Below are positions 2,893-12,198 of a stretch of DNA of 20,615 nt, one piece after another. The DNA is from a virus. How positions within the stretch are numbered: position 1 is the first letter of the stretch; each line of letters starts with the position of its first letter. The stretch lies in the IMG/VR virus record IMGVR_UViG_3300042402_003094, positions 1 through 20,615 of that record. One strand, given 5' to 3'. A program made the position numbers and the translations under genes. Under the pieces are notes generated by a model that did no database searches, was not told where the DNA came from, and saw nothing but the letters and a program-made list of their open reading frames with translations.

Positions 2893-4182
2893 TTAACTTA
2901 CCTTACCTGAAAATGAATCTCTTACGAGAGTAAGACTTGTAAAAGTGTCTTTTGGAGTAATTCTATGACATAAACTAGCAATCATATACTTTCCTTTAGT
3001 TTGCATATTTGGTTTTTTATTTTCAATTTTTGCAAGATCTGGGAAATCACACTCAATCATATCCCCCGCATGAAGACTGAAATCTCCTGGAATCATAATA
3101 TGAGTCTTAATGCTATATAGCTGATTATATCTCATAATTGATTGAACCATCGTTGTTGGTGCATCAAAATTAGGATCTGTTGGTTTTGCTTTCCAATTTT
3201 TTAACTGCTCTTTTGCATCTTTTCCGGATGGTAGTGTTCCTAAATCTAATACATGATTCATAAATCGTGTTGGAATTTGCCTAAATTCCTTATCGACGAA
3301 CAGAATATTATCAGCAGCAAGTTCAATTTTTGATTTTTGATCTTTTTCTAGTGAATAATTTCTCACTTGATAATCCATTGCATAAAAATCAAAGAAAATA
3401 CTACGATTATTATACATTCCCAATGACATATTTTGTTGTAAATCTATATTTCTATCAATTTTAACATTGATAATTTTTCCATCATATCCTTCTGGTGTTT
3501 TTGTGGAATTTGTATAGATATATTTTTTCTTTGGTTCTTGTTTTAAAAGAACATCAATTGATTTAAACTTAAATGCTTCACTTGTTTCATACATGAAGTA
3601 ACCAGCTGCTCCGCCGATTCCTTTTTCCGGAACTGCCTTTGATGCTAACCAAGTGCAGACATATAATGGTTTTCTATCATTTCCTATAAAATTATAATTA
3701 ACACCCGTCTTATCAATATCTAATTTCTTTTTAACTTGCAATCCTTTTGGATCGGTAAGTATTTTCCTAACTGATGCTGAAATATCTCTTTCAAATCTAG
3801 TAACAACTCTCGATTGTTCATTAGCAATAAATTCTTTAGTGCAAAAGTCTAACATATAAACATCATTTGAAGTTCCTGGTGATGAACTATTAACGCGATT
3901 GACATATAATTCTAAACTAAGTGTATTTGGTTTAGATTGATTATCCTCGATAACCAATTCTACAAACTCACCACCACGAATTGGAAGACCATCCAACAAT
4001 CCTATCATTTCCTTCTGGTTTGGTTCTAAACCACCAGATTCAGCAATAATAGCAGTCGCTGAAATTGTATTTGAAAGCACATTTTCATAATATTTAATCT
4101 CAGGTGAAACCTGACTAATATCTTTTGACTTAACTTCAAACTTTTTTATATTGCCCGATAAGGCGGCTTCATTACTTGCCAT
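2893..4182 (-). CDS. 27: gp27-like baseplate hub protein
   Basis: This 429-residue protein has the pattern of a tail hub subunit (T4 gp27 / late control D fold). The N-terminal beta-domain contains GLLDGLPIRGGEFVELVIED, followed by a YVNRVNSSSP...YMLDFCTKEF segment. There is a central domain, and a C-terminal beta-domain with IPGDFSLHAGDMIECDFPDL, a GD-type turn typical of hub proteins. T4 gp27 has 391 residues, so the size fits. Its position next to the gp5-like gene matches the gp27-gp5 hub complex, where gp27 forms the torus gripping the gp5 OB-fold. The start ATG overlaps the stop of the 1252-residue gene (TAATG). The CP12-like ATG directly follows its stop. Assignment rests on fold-like patterns and context, not on strong residue identity. 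Confidence 0.7.
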   Translation of the reverse strand: MASNEAALSGNIKKFEVKSKDISQVSPEIKYYENVLSNTISATAIIAESGGLEPNQKEMIGLLDGLPIRGGEFVELVIEDNQSKPNTLSLELYVNRVNSSSPGTSNDVYMLDFCTKEFIANEQSRVVTRFERDISASVRKILTDPKGLQVKKKLDIDKTGVNYNFIGNDRKPLYVCTWLASKAVPEKGIGGAAGYFMYETSEAFKFKSIDVLLKQEPKKKYIYTNSTKTPEGYDGKIINVKIDRNIDLQQNMSLGMYNNRSIFFDFYAMDYQVRNYSLEKDQKSKIELAADNILFVDKEFRQIPTRFMNHVLDLGTLPSGKDAKEQLKNWKAKPTDPNFDAPTTMVQSIMRYNQLYSIKTHIMIPGDFSLHAGDMIECDFPDLAKIENKKPNMQTKGKYMIASLCHRITPKDTFTSLTLVRDSFSGKVS

Positions 4183-7100
4183 TAGATTTTGTACATTGAA
4201 GATGAGATTAATTGTCTGGAGACCATTCCATAACTATTTACCATACCATCAACAAAAGATGGTGTATATCCACTACCATTCTTTCTTATTGGTTGCATGG
4301 ATTGTCCACCAGGACTTTGGATAAGCATAATCATTCCATTTGATTTATCGTAAGATGCTGTTTGACTTAAGTTGGGTATTGACGATTTAATTGCAGGATC
4401 CCCAAGAACTTTGTAATTCAATGCAAAATCAGATATTTGTGCTGCTGGTGGAGCACTTGGTGCTCCAGGAGCACCTGGAGCAGATCCAGAACCTGGCGCT
4501 GATAAATCTGTTCCAGATGGTGCTAAACCAGCACCTTTAAATTCAAAGTGTCCTCCGTGGCTTCCTGGATAATCATTAGCAACCCAACCATAATTTCTAC
4601 CATTCTTTCTAATCCAAGAATTAGAACCACCATGAATATCCATTGCAATTCCAGACATATGGAGTGATCCACTCGCTCCCCCAACTGCTCTATTTTTTTC
4701 TGGACTTCTCTTACTGCTTGAAACATCTGATGCTTTAACTTTTCCACCAGAATCTTTCATCATTTTATAGAAAGCTTCAGCAGCACCCTTACTAAAGACT
4801 ACAGGTCTTCCTTGCTCATCTTTGGCACCTTGAATGGTATATCCAGGTCCAGTATCCCAAATACCTTTTGTGGAAATAATTCCACTTCCACCACCTCTAC
4901 CACCTTTAGCTGCTGCAGGATCCCCAAGAACTTTATAGTTTGCTGCGAAATCTGATATTTGAACTCCTTCAGATGGTGCAGATGGGGCCCCTGGAGATCC
5001 CGAAGATCCTGGACCTGCAATTGATGGATCTGGTTGTATAGATCCACCGAAAGGAGATTCCTTATTATATTTTGATAAAGGATTGAATCTAGAAAGAACT
5101 GCTGATTTTGGCATTCCATTATCTCTTGGATTCGTTGCTGCTTCCCAATGCAGGTGAGGTCCACTAGAAAGTCCAGTGCTCCCCAGTGGACCCAAAATAG
5201 TTCCTTTCTTAATTTTTTGACCACGCTTAACATACGCGGGTTTATCCATGTGCGCATAAAAATGCCCAATTCCCGTATTATCAATCCAATTGACCCAATT
5301 ACCATAATTACCTTGATTTCCAGTTGCTTCAACAACACCATCGGTAAATGCTTGTAGTGGTTCTCCTCTTGTTCCCGAAATATCAACACCCATATGCATT
5401 CCAGGAGACAATGCAAAATTTCGCATTCCCATATCTGATGTGACTTGATGATTTCCACCCATTGCTAAGAATGGAACTTTGTGGCGTTTTATTCCATTTC
5501 CACCACCTTTACCACCATTTTTACTAGGATTTGATGCAATATCTGGAGGAACATTTCCACCGGATTTAACTTTAGCAAGGGCTGTTTTAATTTTTTCTGG
5601 GGTCATAGAACTTCTTTGACCTGGATAATAAAACTTCCCTTGAGCGTTTGGTAATGATGCAAATTCCTGCGACAACCCCTGCATAAACCGATCATCACTC
5701 ATTTCACCTTTCAACCATCTTCTACCACCTCTGTTACCTTCTATATTAACCTTAGTAATAATTAGATCTTGGTTTTTTGGACTAAAAAGATCTTTATCAG
5801 GATTTAACCCAGCCGCTTTTGCTCTACTAATCAGATATTGTGGTAATTGTTGATATTTTCCAACAGCACCAGTTGCTCTTCTGGCAACTTCGGCAATCGT
5901 CATTTTAGTAGCACCTTTTAATGTAGTGCTAGGATACATTGCTTCATAATTTCCACCAGATTCTTTGCCGGCGATCAAATCAAGAAGTGGCCCCCATTGA
6001 CCTTCAGATATACCACTGCTAGGTGCAGAAGTGCCATCATCAGCACCACCTGGAGGTCCACCGCCAGGTTGCGCTTCTTCTTTCTTTTCCTGTAATAATT
6101 TAAATTGATTTTCTTGAGATTTTACATCAACAAATATTTTTTTCTTTGCCCAATCTGTTAAATTCTTACTAAATTGTCCGATTATTCTTTTATTAAATCC
6201 TGGAACGCTAAATTCATCATTTTTCAAAGCAATACCAATTGAGGAACCAATAGATTCTGCAATTGCATCTGTTCTTGGTTTAGATACTTTTTCGCCTAAA
6301 CTAATATCCAAACCAAGTTTCATTGCCTCACCGATGAATGGTATAGCACCATAAGTTGAAGAAAGATTTGCAAATCTCTTTGCACTCTCTTCATCTTTTA
6401 AAATGGTTCCTTTTGCTTTTTTCAGTGTTTGTGGAGATATTGCAGATGAACCAGTTGTTTTTCTTTGAATACTTGTAGATCTTGATAAAGTTCTTTTTGA
6501 TCCTCCACCTCTTATATTAATTTGACCACCATATGCTCTTCTCTCAATAGGATTTTCCTTATCGGCTTCAGCGACTCTTCCTGTTAAATTTTCATATATT
6601 TTTTTACCAGCCCATTCTCCAATTCCAGCACCAACAAATCCACCAACAGCAGCACCTACAACTGGAATTGGAATCAATCCCTGTCCTATAGCGCCACCAA
6701 TACCAGCACCTAGAGTTGCTCCTATTGCTCCAACTATGGCACGATCTAGTTTCTCACCTAAAGCAAGATCAATACCAATTCCAATCAGAGCACCAACAAC
6801 AGGAACTCTCTTAAAGATTTTAGAAAATGATTTAAATCTTTTAACTATTCTAGCAGTAGAATTTAATGCACTACCTGCTGCACCTGCTGCTTTACCTGCT
6901 AGTCTAGCAGCACCCTTAGCAGCACCTTTTACCCCTTGCTCTAATGCTTCACCACCTACTCTTTGGACTAAAGATTTTAGGGGACCTTTAACCAGATTAA
7001 AGATTACTCCACCCGCTTTTTTGAATAGATTTCCTGCGATTCTTCCTGCTTTTAATAATAACTTACCAATCAGTTTGGCAGGAGGACCAATAATTTTTGA

Positions 7101-7940
7101 AGTTAATTTTGCAATAAACTTAACTTGTTTCGGAAATACCGTCGTTAATGTAATAATTCCAAGTTTTAATGCATTCCAAGTGTTAGTAAGTCCTTTTCCA
7201 ATGTCTTTAAACATCTGAAGAATCATTGGACCATTCTTCAGAAGAATATTAAGCAGACTTCCTATTAGAACATTTAATAGGAATCTTTTGATCATATCAA
7301 AAAGACCAACCTTCGGAGCAGTTATTCCTAACTTTTTCTTCTTCTTAGTATCTTTCTTTTCTTCTAGATTTTTTTCTTGTTCTTCTGCTTTCTTCTTTCT
7401 ACCTTCTATAAAGTTAAGGCGACTTTCCTCTTTTTGGTTGAGGAGTTTTTGTGTTGATATCTGTTTAACTTTTATAAAATCAACTTTTATTTGCTCAAGT
7501 TCTTGTAAAATTTCTCCGAGAACACCATCAGATTTAACTAATGCTCCACTTGGTTTCTTATCTTCAGTCTTAACCAAAGCACCCGATGAACTTTTAACTA
7601 TTGCTGAAGATCTTCTTAAAACTAATGCTCCCCCCTTTCCACCACCTTTTTTATTTTGTGGTATAAATTTTTTTGTTGTTATTTTTTTATCCTTATTTTT
7701 ATTTCCAATTAACCCAAATGCAGCAGACCTTACTACAGATGTTGCAAGACCTCTAACAGCTGCACCACCAACACCTCTTAATGCTCCACCAATACCACCT
7801 CTAACAGCCGCACCACCAACACCTCTAGCAACAGTTCCTCTTACTAATGCACCTCCTCCACCCCTAACAGCAGCACCAGCTGCGCCTCTAGCAGCTACTC
7901 CCGCAGCTGCTCTTAAAACTAAAGGAGCTAGAAATAACAT
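4182..7940 (-). CDS. Large virion protein with three cell-wall hydrolase domains; tape-measure candidate
   Basis: Order along 1252 residues: a Gly/Arg-rich repeat tract (~15-75); a charged Lys/Glu coiled region (~140-205); a hydrophobic FLLNVLIGSLLNILLKN segment shared with the 833-residue neighbour; several glycine-zipper hydrophobic stretches (~235-460), as in tape measure proteins; a lambda R / GH104-like lysozyme-fold domain (~645-780, with GKESGG, GKYQQLP, SPKNQDL and FASLPNAQGKF); an M23 LytM-type zinc endopeptidase (~828-935, HMGVD, GHFYAH, HLHWE); then an M15-like D,D-peptidase domain (~1020-1135, SLHMSGIAMDI and HGGHFEF). Key residues of all three look intact. The motif ISDFA(A/L)NYKVLGDP flanks the M15-like domain at both ends. 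The gene lies between the 833-residue gene and gp27, where T4 has genes 28-29. It probably acts in the tail lumen or hub, cutting peptidoglycan at DNA injection (inference). Confidence 0.8.
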   Translation of the reverse strand: MLFLAPLVLRAAAGVAARGAAGAAVRGGGGALVRGTVARGVGGAAVRGGIGGALRGVGGAAVRGLATSVVRSAAFGLIGNKNKDKKITTKKFIPQNKKGGGKGGALVLRRSSAIVKSSSGALVKTEDKKPSGALVKSDGVLGEILQELEQIKVDFIKVKQISTQKLLNQKEESRLNFIEGRKKKAEEQEKNLEEKKDTKKKKKLGITAPKVGLFDMIKRFLLNVLIGSLLNILLKNGPMILQMFKDIGKGLTNTWNALKLGIITLTTVFPKQVKFIAKLTSKIIGPPAKLIGKLLLKAGRIAGNLFKKAGGVIFNLVKGPLKSLVQRVGGEALEQGVKGAAKGAARLAGKAAGAAGSALNSTARIVKRFKSFSKIFKRVPVVGALIGIGIDLALGEKLDRAIVGAIGATLGAGIGGAIGQGLIPIPVVGAAVGGFVGAGIGEWAGKKIYENLTGRVAEADKENPIERRAYGGQINIRGGGSKRTLSRSTSIQRKTTGSSAISPQTLKKAKGTILKDEESAKRFANLSSTYGAIPFIGEAMKLGLDISLGEKVSKPRTDAIAESIGSSIGIALKNDEFSVPGFNKRIIGQFSKNLTDWAKKKIFVDVKSQENQFKLLQEKKEEAQPGGGPPGGADDGTSAPSSGISEGQWGPLLDLIAGKESGGNYEAMYPSTTLKGATKMTIAEVARRATGAVGKYQQLPQYLISRAKAAGLNPDKDLFSPKNQDLIITKVNIEGNRGGRRWLKGEMSDDRFMQGLSQEFASLPNAQGKFYYPGQRSSMTPEKIKTALAKVKSGGNVPPDIASNPSKNGGKGGGNGIKRHKVPFLAMGGNHQVTSDMGMRNFALSPGMHMGVDISGTRGEPLQAFTDGVVEATGNQGNYGNWVNWIDNTGIGHFYAHMDKPAYVKRGQKIKKGTILGPLGSTGLSSGPHLHWEAATNPRDNGMPKSAVLSRFNPLSKYNKESPFGGSIQPDPSIAGPGSSGSPGAPSAPSEGVQISDFAANYKVLGDPAAAKGGRGGGSGIISTKGIWDTGPGYTIQGAKDEQGRPVVFSKGAAEAFYKMMKDSGGKVKASDVSSSKRSPEKNRAVGGASGSLHMSGIAMDIHGGSNSWIRKNGRNYGWVANDYPGSHGGHFEFKGAGLAPSGTDLSAPGSGSAPGAPGAPSAPPAAQISDFALNYKVLGDPAIKSSIPNLSQTASYDKSNGMIMLIQSPGGQSMQPIRKNGSGYTPSFVDGMVNSYGMVSRQLISSSMYKI
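4395..4436 (-). repeat. ISDFAxNYKVLGDP motif, copy 3 (C-terminal)
   Basis: Codons here encode ISDFALNYKVLGDP near residue 1170 of the 1252-residue protein. It is one of three near-identical copies in the two large adjacent virion genes. It follows a Gly/Ala/Pro/Ser-rich linker and precedes the C-terminal ~70 residues. Nucleotide sequence differs from the other copies mainly at silent positions. Confidence 0.9.
4917..4958 (-). repeat. ISDFAxNYKVLGDP motif, copy 2
   Basis: Codons encode ISDFAANYKVLGDP near residue 1000 of the 1252-residue protein, between the M23 and M15-like domains. It is preceded by a flexible Pro/Ser/Gly linker. The 14 residues are identical to the copy in the 833-residue protein. 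Confidence 0.9.
7750..7826 (-). repeat. Two 29-bp direct repeats, 48 bp apart
   Basis: The stretches at 7750-7778 and 7798-7826 differ at one base (t/c). They encode the doubled RGVGGAAVRG unit in the Gly/Arg/Ala-rich N-terminus of the 1252-residue protein. Further diverged copies extend on both sides. This looks like internal tandem duplication in a low-complexity coding tract. Confidence 0.8.
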
Positions 7941-7943
7941 TTC

Positions 7944-10445
7944 TTATAAACCTCCCCACATATTATAGATTGAAGCAACAACTGCCAAGGTTGCTTCATC
8001 TTCTCGGAATGAACTAAACACTGTCTGGTTATTACTTCCACCATTTGAAGAACCTGTCATCATAGGTGTTTGATTTTTTGCCGGCAATGGTAACGCTGCT
8101 ATTGTTGGTTTGTTTGATGGTGGTTGTGGTATGTTTTGCTTTGGTTTATCTGGGGGCATAACCATTGCGGGAGATGTGCCAACTGCCATCACTTTTTCAG
8201 CAACAAATTTATCTTTTGCTGCTCCAGATAATCCTAATTTATCTGCTTCCAATCTTGCTGCATTAGCAGATTTAAATTGCTCGGAATTTAAAGATTTATC
8301 TGGTCTCTGTCCAGGTGCTAATGCTCCAGGAGGATTCCCTGTCCCCGACTTATTATCAAGAATAGATTTTGCTAAATTTCCAGATTCTTTTTTTGATTCA
8401 TCTTTTTTAGATCCTGGAGGAACATATCCTGCTCTGGCAGGATCTCCAAGAACTTTATAATTTGCTGCAAAGTCTGATATTCCTACTGATGATGATGGTG
8501 CTGCTGATGAAGAACTTGAGTAAGATGAAGATCCTCCCGGAACATCAACCTGTTTTAGAGCAACATCTAATCCTTCTTTAGATCCTGGTAACTGAGAAGC
8601 ACCTTTTCTTGCAATAGCAAAATCTGCTGCTGCTCTTCTTGCATATTCTCTCGCTTTTTCAGGAGGAGCACCTTGTTTCATCCACTTCTCGTAAGTGGTA
8701 TTATATGCTTGCTTATATGCCCAATAGATATCTGCTTGAGGATCTACATTTACTTTTATAGGACCTACAAGTTTTCCAATGTTTCCACCAGACTCACTCT
8801 TAAAATGTTGAGATAGTGCAACAGAATTAATAACCATTTTGCCTTCTTGGCTACTTGGTTTAACCCCTGTTAATTGATCTCTAGCACCAAGTAGCATAGA
8901 TAATCCACCCAATCCAGCACCTTGAACTACTTTATTAATTTGTTTAACTGTGAAGTTTCCTGATCCTTCTTTCTTGTATGCGACAGTATATCTTTTTGCA
9001 GCAGCACCAGAACCAACATTTATTGATGTTTGATTTGATCCTTTAATGTATAGGTCGGGGTCAAATCCTATAGTTCCACCTTCATTTGCGGCTTGAATCT
9101 TTACATCTCCAAGAGAAGCAACATTTCTTTTGGATGATCCTCCAAACATTTTATTGATGCTATCTAAGTATGCAGGACCGCCCAACCAGTCTGCAGCACC
9201 ACCTTTTAATACATATTCACCATCTGATAATGCAGTTAGACGCTTATCTTGGCCAAGACCCTCAACATCATAAGCGGCTGTTTGCGAATTTACAATACCA
9301 CCTTCAGATGAAACTTTATCATTAAATGACAACTTCTTAGATTCGGAAGATTTTATAGGAGTGATTGGTCCTCCACCAAATTTTAATTGAATTGGTGGTC
9401 CTGATGGTGCTTGTTGTTGCTTTTTCTCACCAGTAATATCAGGACTTTGTATTTGTGGAGGTTCTGGTATATTTGGTGCTTGTGGTGCTGCCAGTTGAGG
9501 AGATCCTGGGAGCATTTTTAATGCACCATTTAGAATATCAATAAACCCTTTCAGTGCAGAGTTAATCATATCAATAAAACTTCTGACTGGTTGAACAACC
9601 ATAAAATCAATAAATTTTATGACATTATTAAAGAATCCTACAATACCATCAACCAATCCTTGAATTGGTTTTAATAGCATCATTGGGTTTTTTATAACCT
9701 TCAACAACCACATAACAATAGATCCTAACAGCACATTCAATAAGAAATTTCTAATCGTATCAAAAATGCTAGTGAAAGGTTTTGTTATTTTCTCAAGTAT
9801 TCCAGATCCTTTATCTTTGTCTTGTTTTTCTAGATCTTTTTCTTCCTGTTTCGCCTTTGTTTTTTCACCTTCTTTTCTCCTATTTTCGGTATTCTTTTTA
9901 TCAAGTCCAAGTTGCTTATTCAGAATACCAACCAAATCTTTAACAACAGATCCAATACCCTTAAGTGAATCAAGTAAATTTTTAAAGAAATCTGACAGAT
10001 CTTCCTTATCCTTTTGCTCCTCAGGTTCTGGAATTTCTGTTTTTACCTTTTTAAATGGTTGTATCGCACCACCAGATCCTGGCAAAAGTCTAGATGGATC
10101 TTTAATAGGTTTTGCTTTTGAGGTCTTTGATTTATTAATTACCTTCTCTGCTTTTACTGCTTTTGATTTTAACTTGAACTTTCCTTTATTTCTTTTTACT
10201 CTCTTGAATTCATCTATTAATACTGCTTGATTTTGAGATGTCTTTTTATCAGCAGGTTTCTGAGCTGCTTTCATATCAAGCTCAGTTAATTTTTCTTTGA
10301 TTAGAGTTTTATATTCTCCATATTCAAAGTCAAAGACATCCTCCAGACCCAAGAGTTTTAAAATTCTTGGGTCAATATCCTCCTCGACTAACTCCTCATC
10401 ATTAGCAGTTTGTTCGTATTGAGATTTGGAGGTGTCTGTTTCCAT
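7944..10445 (-). CDS. Large virion structural protein, paralogous in part to the 1252-residue protein; tape-measure or hub candidate
   Basis: The 833-residue product starts with an acidic helical region, followed by a Lys-rich tract (~70-120) and a charged coiled region (~140-215). Next comes IFDTIRNFLLNVLLGSIVMW with adjoining hydrophobic helices (~225-300), resembling the matching part of the 1252-residue protein. A Pro/Gln-rich linker follows, then a domain with LTALSDGEYVLKGGAADWLG (~405-440), a pattern common in phage tail proteins. Beyond a Ser-rich linker lies ISDFAANYKVLGDP (~656-669). No hydrolase motif was seen. The gene directly follows the gp26/53-residue frameshift pair, the position a tape measure gene takes in many tailed phages, and T4 has 27-28-29 here. 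The start ATG lies one base after the upstream stop. Function is inferred from position and composition only. Confidence 0.65.
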   Translation of the reverse strand: METDTSKSQYEQTANDEELVEEDIDPRILKLLGLEDVFDFEYGEYKTLIKEKLTELDMKAAQKPADKKTSQNQAVLIDEFKRVKRNKGKFKLKSKAVKAEKVINKSKTSKAKPIKDPSRLLPGSGGAIQPFKKVKTEIPEPEEQKDKEDLSDFFKNLLDSLKGIGSVVKDLVGILNKQLGLDKKNTENRRKEGEKTKAKQEEKDLEKQDKDKGSGILEKITKPFTSIFDTIRNFLLNVLLGSIVMWLLKVIKNPMMLLKPIQGLVDGIVGFFNNVIKFIDFMVVQPVRSFIDMINSALKGFIDILNGALKMLPGSPQLAAPQAPNIPEPPQIQSPDITGEKKQQQAPSGPPIQLKFGGGPITPIKSSESKKLSFNDKVSSEGGIVNSQTAAYDVEGLGQDKRLTALSDGEYVLKGGAADWLGGPAYLDSINKMFGGSSKRNVASLGDVKIQAANEGGTIGFDPDLYIKGSNQTSINVGSGAAAKRYTVAYKKEGSGNFTVKQINKVVQGAGLGGLSMLLGARDQLTGVKPSSQEGKMVINSVALSQHFKSESGGNIGKLVGPIKVNVDPQADIYWAYKQAYNTTYEKWMKQGAPPEKAREYARRAAADFAIARKGASQLPGSKEGLDVALKQVDVPGGSSSYSSSSSAAPSSSVGISDFAANYKVLGDPARAGYVPPGSKKDESKKESGNLAKSILDNKSGTGNPPGALAPGQRPDKSLNSEQFKSANAARLEADKLGLSGAAKDKFVAEKVMAVGTSPAMVMPPDKPKQNIPQPPSNKPTIAALPLPAKNQTPMMTGSSNGGSNNQTVFSSFREDEATLAVVASIYNMWGGL
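8439..8480 (-). repeat. ISDFAxNYKVLGDP motif, copy 1
   Basis: Codons encode ISDFAANYKVLGDP near residue 660 of the 833-residue protein, directly after a Ser-rich linker. The 14 residues are identical to those at 4917-4958 in the neighbouring gene. Confidence 0.9.
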
Positions 10446-10446
10446 T

Positions 10447-10608
10447 CTACTGCTGTGCTTGTTTTGCCCTTTCTTCTTCTAGATGCTGTTGAAGTAGAGT
10501 CACATAAATGTCCCTTTCCCAAGGAAGCATATTTTCAATCTCTGTTAATGAATATTTATGATACTGCATCAAGGCAAAATTAAGCTTATAGTAGTTCTCA
10601 AGGTCCAT
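10447..10608 (-). CDS. Small tail-assembly ORF after gp26 (gp51 / lambda T-like position), likely made as a -1 frameshift fusion
   Basis: The ORF runs from ATG at 10608 to TAG at 10447-10449 and encodes 53 residues, helical and charged, with YHKYSLTEIENMLPWERDIY. That pattern resembles the second part of tail assembly chaperones, in which a small Leu/Trp-rich peptide follows the main chaperone ORF. Its frame is open upstream of the ATG through CGG ATA GGA CTG GTC CAT back to a T TTT TTC heptamer at the end of gp26. A -1 slip there would give a ~297-residue gp26 fusion adding RIGLVH plus these 53 residues. Independent initiation at the ATG is possible, but no good ribosome binding site is visible and the ATG lies within a perfect palindrome. 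In T4 gene 51 follows gene 26, but T4 gp51 has 249 residues, so homology is not claimed. Confidence 0.75.
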   Translation of the reverse strand: MDLENYYKLNFALMQYHKYSLTEIENMLPWERDIYVTLLQQHLEEERAKQAQQ

Positions 10609-10615
10609 ATGGACC
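10602..10615 (-). other. Perfect 14-bp palindrome over the small ORF start; possible frameshift-stimulating stem
   Basis: GGTCCATATGGACC is its own reverse complement. In RNA it can form a 5-bp GC-rich stem with an AUAU loop, starting 10 bases after the slippery heptamer on the minus strand. The ATG of the 53-residue ORF is in the palindrome. It may stimulate slippage or hide the start codon; the stem is short, so its effect is uncertain. Confidence 0.5.
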
Positions 10616-10619
10616 AGTC

Positions 10620-11339
10620 CTATCCGAAAAAACTGGATAATCCTTCAAGAACTACGGTGCTTTCAACTTCAGTCTTTGGATTTGTCAGTTTAACTTCGTG
10701 AGAAAGTTTTGGCATTGTTTCAAAGAACTTTTCAATTTGTTTGAACTGCTGAGAATTCATCTGATCCAAGAACTCACTAAGTTCTTTCTTTGTCACATCA
10801 GCAGTATCCCAAACTTCTTCTTCATTATAAATTTTATCAATACAAGATGCAATCAAATCAAAAGATTGATCCATACTATTGTTTGAACTAAAGTCAAAGT
10901 TTGATTTAATAAACTGATCCAATGAAGGATACTTCATTTCCATCATTAAATTGTTATCAATTTTAATCTTTGTTGTGTGCTCTTCATTCTTCTTGACTTT
11001 AATATCATCAATTAAAATCTTAACTTCAACGGGAGTTTCTCCATCATCAGGTGCAATCAAATTAACTTCAATTTCTTCCCCAACAGATTTTCCGCGAATG
11101 TTAAGGAACAAATATTCAATATCAAAGGTTGGTAAATTTTCAACCTTGATACTTTTAGATTGAATGCAATTCTTAATTACAGTCTTAATAGCAGTTGTAA
11201 TTTGCTTCATATCCTCACTTTCCAAAGCAAGAACAAGAAGTTTTTCTTCTCTAACTAAAAACGGTCTATATTTGATCGTTTCTCCAGTTGATGGCAATTC
11301 CAACTCATATGTTGGTGTAGAAATCTTTGGTAAAGGCAT
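10620..11339 (-). CDS. 26: gp26-like baseplate hub / tail assembly protein
   Basis: The 239-residue product matches the pattern of the T4 baseplate hub gp26 family: a start like KISTPTYELELPSTGETIKY, then YRPFLVREEKLLVLALES, LPTFDIEYLFLNIRGKSVGE and a helical C-terminal half. T4 gp26 has 208 residues and is needed for hub assembly. The last codons are AGT TTT TTC GGA TAG, carrying a T TTT TTC slippery heptamer immediately before the stop. The protein may therefore be made in two forms, gp26 and a frameshifted extension, like the lambda G/GT chaperones. A CATAAATA late promoter lies 27 bases upstream of its ATG, just after the gp54 stop. The tape-measure-like genes follow. Confidence 0.8.
   Translation of the reverse strand: MPLPKISTPTYELELPSTGETIKYRPFLVREEKLLVLALESEDMKQITTAIKTVIKNCIQSKSIKVENLPTFDIEYLFLNIRGKSVGEEIEVNLIAPDDGETPVEVKILIDDIKVKKNEEHTTKIKIDNNLMMEMKYPSLDQFIKSNFDFSSNNSMDQSFDLIASCIDKIYNEEEVWDTADVTKKELSEFLDQMNSQQFKQIEKFFETMPKLSHEVKLTNPKTEVESTVVLEGLSSFFG
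10626..10632 (-). promoter_or_regulatory. Candidate -1 ribosomal frameshift slippery heptamer (T TTT TTC)
   Basis: On the minus strand gp26 is read AGT TTT TTC GGA TAG, so the heptamer is correctly phased as X XXY YYZ. A one-base backward slip avoids TAG and enters the frame of the 53-residue ORF with no stop in between. It is followed 10 bases later by a GGTCC/GGACC stem. Frameshifting at this place in tail genes is well known (lambda G/GT and many other tailed phages). Confidence 0.7.
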
Positions 11340-11376: not shown

Positions 11377-12198
11377 TTAAAATGCAGGTCCAGATCTTCC
11401 TAAGAGATTGCCAACAGATCCACCAGCATTGCCGAATGGATTTACTGTTAAATTCTGTCCAGTCTGCCCAAGTTCTCCGTCACTATCAATTGCAACATTA
11501 TTAAATAGTGCATTAGAAGCAGCTTGGGATCTTGGATCTCCTGGAACATCTGGTGCTGGTCCAAATTCTGTCGTTCTTACATATCTTAAATATGTGAATG
11601 AGACAGTCGCTTTGAGAAGATCACTCCCCTCATATGAGACTGGAATGGAAACCAAATTTGTTGGAAATGCTCCAATGAATTGATATTTTAATGTTTTATT
11701 TGAACCACCTCTTGTTCCATAGTCCTTTTCAAATTTAGTGAGGAAAATATTGCATCTATAATCCTTTGGCCAATTCATTCTATAAAATGCAGTAAGATCT
11801 TTATACTGATCATTGGATAAAAAGCTTCCTTCACCAACAACATAATTCATCCAAGAATTTAAATAATCAATAACTTTATAATTATGATCTACGTAGAATG
11901 TTAAATCAATACTATCATCATAAATTCTGCGATATGCCATCTTTTCAGTCACACCATGATAATCATTAGTCACTTCGTGAGTTGCTAAACTTGATCCTGG
12001 TAAAGATGCTTCACAGCAAGAGATATTAATAATTTCACCATCAACTGCTTGATTTATTCCACGCTGAGCAATAAATGATTTTAAATTGGCATTAGTGCCA
12101 GTAAAAATGTCCACCATATAAACAGAAGTTTGTGCTGGTCTAAGCAACTTCTGTTTCAACTCAGACATTCTAAATTGCTTTGGGCCTGGTGTTGCCAT
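11377..12198 (-). CDS. 54: gp54 baseplate tail tube initiator
   Basis: The 273-residue product has the tail-tube-like fold pattern shared by T4 gp19 and gp54: ISCCEASLPGSSLATHEVT, MAYRRIYDDSIDLTFYVDHN, a WMNYVVGEGS segment and a KYQFIGAFPTNLVSIPVSYE strand leading to TVSFTYLRYVRT. gp54 sits on the baseplate and starts polymerisation of the gp19 tube. T4 gp54 has 320 residues. Its start lies back to back with the rightward gp4 operon; the rightward late promoter starts two bases beyond its ATG. A second tail tube paralogue is the main alternative, but the neighbourhood of gp26, gp48 and gp53 favours gp54. No clear ribosome binding site precedes the ATG. Confidence 0.8.
   Translation of the reverse strand: MATPGPKQFRMSELKQKLLRPAQTSVYMVDIFTGTNANLKSFIAQRGINQAVDGEIINISCCEASLPGSSLATHEVTNDYHGVTEKMAYRRIYDDSIDLTFYVDHNYKVIDYLNSWMNYVVGEGSFLSNDQYKDLTAFYRMNWPKDYRCNIFLTKFEKDYGTRGGSNKTLKYQFIGAFPTNLVSIPVSYEGSDLLKATVSFTYLRYVRTTEFGPAPDVPGDPRSQAASNALFNNVAIDSDGELGQTGQNLTVNPFGNAGGSVGNLLGRSGPAF

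Follow-up and report, generated by a model that had tools for sequence, protein, structure and literature searches.

Does the gp26 gene of this T4-like virus end at its stop codon, or do some ribosomes carry on through the short open reading frame behind it? The window analysed is the whole stretch of 20,615 nt (IMG/VR record IMGVR_UViG_3300042402_003094, positions 1 to 20,615), and a reading of its letters, here called the sequence-only reading, had proposed that gp26 and a 53-residue ORF are joined by a −1 ribosomal frameshift. The features concerned are, in window coordinates:

11339..10620, minus strand: gp26 coding sequence, 239 aa; the zero-frame product and proposed short tail assembly chaperone (TAC-N).
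10632..10626, minus strand: slippery heptamer T TTT TTC, recognized from sequence, in the zero-frame phase X XXY YYZ.
10622..10620, minus strand: gp26 zero-frame stop TAG, one sense codon (GGA) after the heptamer.
10626..10447, minus strand: −1 frame extension of 59 codons plus stop, the proposed TAC-C domain; annotations usually give it a gene of its own, gp51 or baseplate hub assembly catalyst.
10608..10447, minus strand: 53-aa ATG ORF within the extension; in the rival reading, an independent gp51 start.

The 3′ end of gp26 reads AGT TTT TTC GGA TAG, and past the heptamer the −1 frame continues as CGG ATA GGA CTG GTC CAT ATG and stays open until the TAG at 10449..10447. The extension has 59 residues, the last 53 of which are the ATG ORF, and a fusion would comprise 238 + 59 = 297 aa; the heptamer phase, open −1 frame, 53-residue ORF and fusion of about 297 residues described in the sequence-only reading are thus confirmed. 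The nearest −1-frame stop upstream lies 15 nt 5′ of the heptamer, so that any shift into this frame is confined to a 25-nt interval. Among the 5975 codons of the main ORFs of the window, the in-phase T TTT TTC is unique to the gp26 end.

From these features and the comparisons below, gp26 and the gp26-51 fusion are very probably a tail assembly chaperone pair (TAC-N/TAC-NC) produced by −1 programmed frameshifting and acting on the tape measure protein. Most ribosomes would end at the TAG, giving the 239-aa short form, while a minority would slip by −1 on T TTT TTC, with a Shine-Dalgarno-like sequence upstream and a hairpin downstream as aids, to give the 297-aa long form, whose C-terminal domain would be the part called gp51. 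If lambda gpG/gpGT is a guide, the short form may cover the tape measure protein, and tail tube subunits may be recruited by the long form. Slippage in vivo, its efficiency, the part played by the two stimulators and the chaperone activity are what we infer from sequence comparison.

Profile matches place the zero-frame product in PF12322, T4_baseplate (E=8.8e-75, 251.6 bits vs the curated cut-off of 24.5) and in phrog_150, baseplate hub (E=1.2e-79). For the extension, the matches are to phrog_634, baseplate hub assembly catalyst (gp51; E=6.7e-29), and to the C-terminus of phrog_150 (positions 238-281 of 282, E=1.1e-6). Since phrog_150 is the gp26 family, both parts form one chain in some family members. 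Two neighboring genes bear on the proposed function:

11377..12198, minus strand: upstream tail tube or tube-initiator-like gene (phrog_45 tail tube, E=7.9e-36).
10445..7944, minus strand: downstream 833-aa ORF, candidate client of the chaperone, with weak tape-measure matches (phrog_5448, E=0.0026; phrog_4372, E=0.012).

The assignment of the 833-aa ORF as tape measure is accordingly weak. Elsewhere in this tail gene cluster, a 1252-aa ORF (7940..4182, minus strand) has endolysin and metallo-endopeptidase family matches near residues 830-950.

The gp26 ends were compared across relatives. Of the 80 closest viral contigs, all 80 place a single codon between T TTT TTC and the stop and keep the −1 frame open, and in a wider set that included pelagiphage-type and Aeromonas phages T TTT TTC or T TTT TTT was nearly always kept. 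Altogether one or the other occurs in phase in 120 of 121 non-redundant relatives, and the −1 frame is open for 56-69 codons in all 119 relatives with a complete extension; conservation of this extent shows that the arrangement is no coincidence. Named phages with the heptamer include S-PM2, P-SSM2, S-SM2, Bellamy, S-RIM2, MED4-213, Cr30, a KVP40-like phage, PhiW-14, Mendera, Mosig and AS-szw. Several pelagiphage-type sequences have the zero-frame stop 8 codons past the heptamer while retaining both heptamer and −1 frame; it is these, and not the stop, that are held. A variant heptamer, T TTT TTA, is present with an open −1 frame in Pseudoalteromonas phage XG4 (L204, ~3240).

Conservation of two Phe residues combined with AT-rich codon use might leave such a heptamer as a by-product, without frameshifting; both Phe are invariant in gp26, and TTT accounts for 74% of Phe codons. 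The first Phe codon, however, is TTT in 120 of 120 heptamer-bearing sequences, and the codon before it has T as its third base in every case (120/120; AGT, GAT, TCT, AAT or GCT), in genes where T-ending codons are 59% of Ser and 76% of Asn codons, although the 121 non-redundant sequences share ancestry and products of such codon frequencies are not true probabilities. GC-rich phages are no exception: the heptamer survives in Mendera and PhiW-14, with 52-56% GC in the gp26 gene, which points to selection at the nucleotide level. An intact extension without the TTT and preceding T was found only in Vibrio phages of the K476/D509 type. A by-product would also leave unexplained the open, selected −1 frame that lacks a start codon, and the existence of a fused homologue, T4 gp51, and we regard the probability of this explanation as negligible.

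If gp51 is instead an independent gene, as publicly annotated, it would be translated from the ATG at 10608, either from a dedicated ribosome binding site or by reinitiation of ribosomes that terminate at the gp26 stop. This in-frame ATG lies 11 nt past the gp26 stop with a weak AGGA upstream (10621..10618), and in several distant phages the two frames share a 1-nt overlap, TGATG or TAATG. Databases do annotate a separate gene: in all annotated heptamer-bearing records checked, the extension either has an entry of its own, as "hub assembly catalyst" or as hypothetical, or was missed entirely. The start codon is not conserved, however: in 43 of 119 relatives ATG, GTG and TTG are all absent ahead of the conserved core. 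Purifying selection acts on the stretch separating the gp26 stop from the would-be ATG, and does so in the −1 frame alone (pN/pS 0.415, vs 1.99 and 1.45 for the two others; 0.254 in the −1 frame farther downstream). Further points against it are the invariant synonymous positions of the heptamer and the location of the ATG, in the window and close relatives, within a covarying hairpin. Independent translation as the whole explanation is therefore very unlikely, while some translation from the ATG at 10608 with its weak AGGA is possible in addition. The proposal that gp26 and the 53-residue ORF are joined by a −1 frameshift thus gains comparative support from the heptamer, the selection on the −1 frame and the start codons.

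The annotations show some irregularities of their own. No annotation covers the −1 extension present in Aeromonas phage AS-szw (RITLVNHTIYDHF...; L088:3202-3373), and in S-RIM2 (L202:2762-2899) and C48C1 (L197:2783-2887) the annotated gp51 start is 51-75 nt past the gp26 stop, with loss of the first part of the extension.

Two elements flanking the heptamer are candidate stimulators:

10645..10641, minus strand: Shine-Dalgarno-like AAGGA, 8 nt 5′ of the heptamer.
10615..10602, minus strand: hairpin GGTCC-ATAT-GGACC, starting 10 nt past the heptamer and containing the would-be ATG.

SD-like matches of at least 5 nt are found upstream in 58 of 120 sequences vs ~31 expected under synonymous recoding, the relatedness of the sequences limiting this and the other stimulator statistics. 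GGAGG and AAGGA are enriched at spacings of 8 or 10 nt, the commonest arrangement being GGAGG 10 nt before the heptamer; the AAGGA of the window is not the strongest version. For the hairpin, 65 relatives show 38 double-sided changes in the five pairs vs 13 in shuffles, a signal that drops strongly when the partners are slid; the hairpin also covaries in a set of 30 sequences. The 40 nt past the heptamer have a mean folding z of −1.53, vs −0.02 to −0.53 in five control windows, and those of the window itself reach −2.08, a modest hairpin. A single hairpin conserved throughout the family was considered and rejected, the downstream stem differing among subclades (P-SSM2, for example, has an 11-bp stem). 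The SD-like motif and covarying hairpin fit known −1 frameshift stimulators, and are candidates for that role here.

The same fusion protein could come from an altered mRNA, by RNA polymerase slippage (transcriptional realignment) on the T-run. There are six to eight consecutive T, and either mechanism could give the same protein. Most of the runs are, however, only six T followed by C, and polymerase slippage usually takes place on longer runs than this. The codon phase, the spacing of the SD-like sequence and the downstream hairpin are hallmarks of ribosomal frameshifting, and transcriptional slippage appears extremely unlikely.

T4 itself offers a second line of evidence. Its gp26 (208 aa) and gp51 (249 aa) both belong to PF12322, but along phrog_150 gp51 extends to position 280 while gp26 ends at 235. 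A profile built from frameshift extensions only, leaving out PhiW-14 and Mendera, recovers T4 gp51 residues 207-245 (E=1.7e-7) but not T4 gp26. The C-terminus of T4 gp51 is therefore homologous to the cyanophage −1 extension, although T4 has two divergently transcribed paralogous genes where the window has one frameshifted gene. Each T4-type record searched has two PF12322 genes, one of them truncated by the ends of the record in G005 and gp51 lying in two fragments in G009, and every other phage checked has a single one; no slippery heptamer was found at the ends of the T4-type genes in those records. T4 thus has one gene for the short form and a paralogue for the long, whereas cyanophages would make both from a single gene. 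The apparently split T4-type gp51 (G009:C1:125062-125666, locus L181) may be either a sequencing error or a real disruption.

A further arrangement occurs in Vibrio phages K476 (L087:2402-3405) and D509 (L196:1839-2760), whose gp26 homologues lack the slippery heptamer and end in CTT TTT GCG TAATG and CTT TTC AAG TAATG, respectively. Both have a single PF12322 copy with a C-domain-like ORF next in the −1 frame, possibly a third way to make the C-domain.

A locus that yields a short and a long form and sits next to tail tube and tape-measure-like genes is characteristic of tail assembly chaperones. In lambda, −1 frameshifting near the gene end yields the short and long forms gpG and gpGT, upstream of the tape-measure gene. 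The heptamer differs, GGGAAAG in lambda vs T TTT TTC here, and the likeness drawn is one of gene organization. Another similar case is the TAC locus of Vandenendeviridae and Andersonviridae, for which PMC12846349 describes a conserved poly-T slippery motif and an uninterrupted −1 frame downstream of TAC-N; these phages are of another clade, the motif is GTTTTT, and the likeness lies in the motif and the open frame. Both gp26 and gp51 have been described as hub assembly chaperones, with gp51 absent from the final particle (review PMC3004832). Together with the T4 gp51 homology, the comparative evidence supports the suggestion of the sequence-only reading that gp26 and gp51 may be the chaperone equivalents.

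Structure prediction adds a lead. The predicted gp26 structure has a pLDDT of 86.7, and its highest-probability PDB matches in Foldseek are to the HK97 chaperone 2ob9 (0.57-0.60), which is only a lead because of the weak E-values of 0.86-2.0. A sequence search gave no meaningful solved homologue of gp26, and a fold search with predicted T4 gp51, folded as the natural long form of the T4 type, gave no match.

Frameshifting is reportedly conserved in several groups of T4-like phages, with T4 said to use genes 26 and 51. The sequence-only reading knew of no described case at gene 26 of T4-like cyanophages; the general conclusion had in fact been published (Vladimirov, Gautam & Davidson, Virology 2022, 566:9-15). 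As cited in PMC10885494, that work describes T4-like phages that, in place of a frameshift, have a short gene plus a longer, fused one, and as cited in PMC12846349, poly-T signals for frameshifting in the TAC-N genes of T4-like phages. The short and long forms and poly-T signals so attributed to T4-like TAC-N/TAC-NC resemble those proposed here, and with that pair already in print the mechanism is known in kind and the window is a further example. A literature search that took in Vladimirov et al. (2022) through such citing papers found no cyanophage-specific report of gp26 frameshifting. Added here, relative to what the citing papers convey, are the survey of cyanophages and pelagiphages, the evidence on stimulators and the Vibrio group without the heptamer. 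Tentatively, and as somewhat short of an even bet, we suggest that the SD-like element 8-10 nt upstream and the fast-evolving, persistent hairpin downstream are undescribed stimulators of the cyanophage gp26 frameshift, and that the T4-like family has at least three C-domain strategies: frameshifting, the T4 duplication, and the heptamer-less −1 ORF of Vibrio K476/D509.

The survey makes a strong comparative case for programmed frameshifting in T4-like cyanophages and pelagiphages, which are abundant. It also supports a reading of T4 gp26 and gp51, long called hub parts, as short and long tape-measure chaperones.
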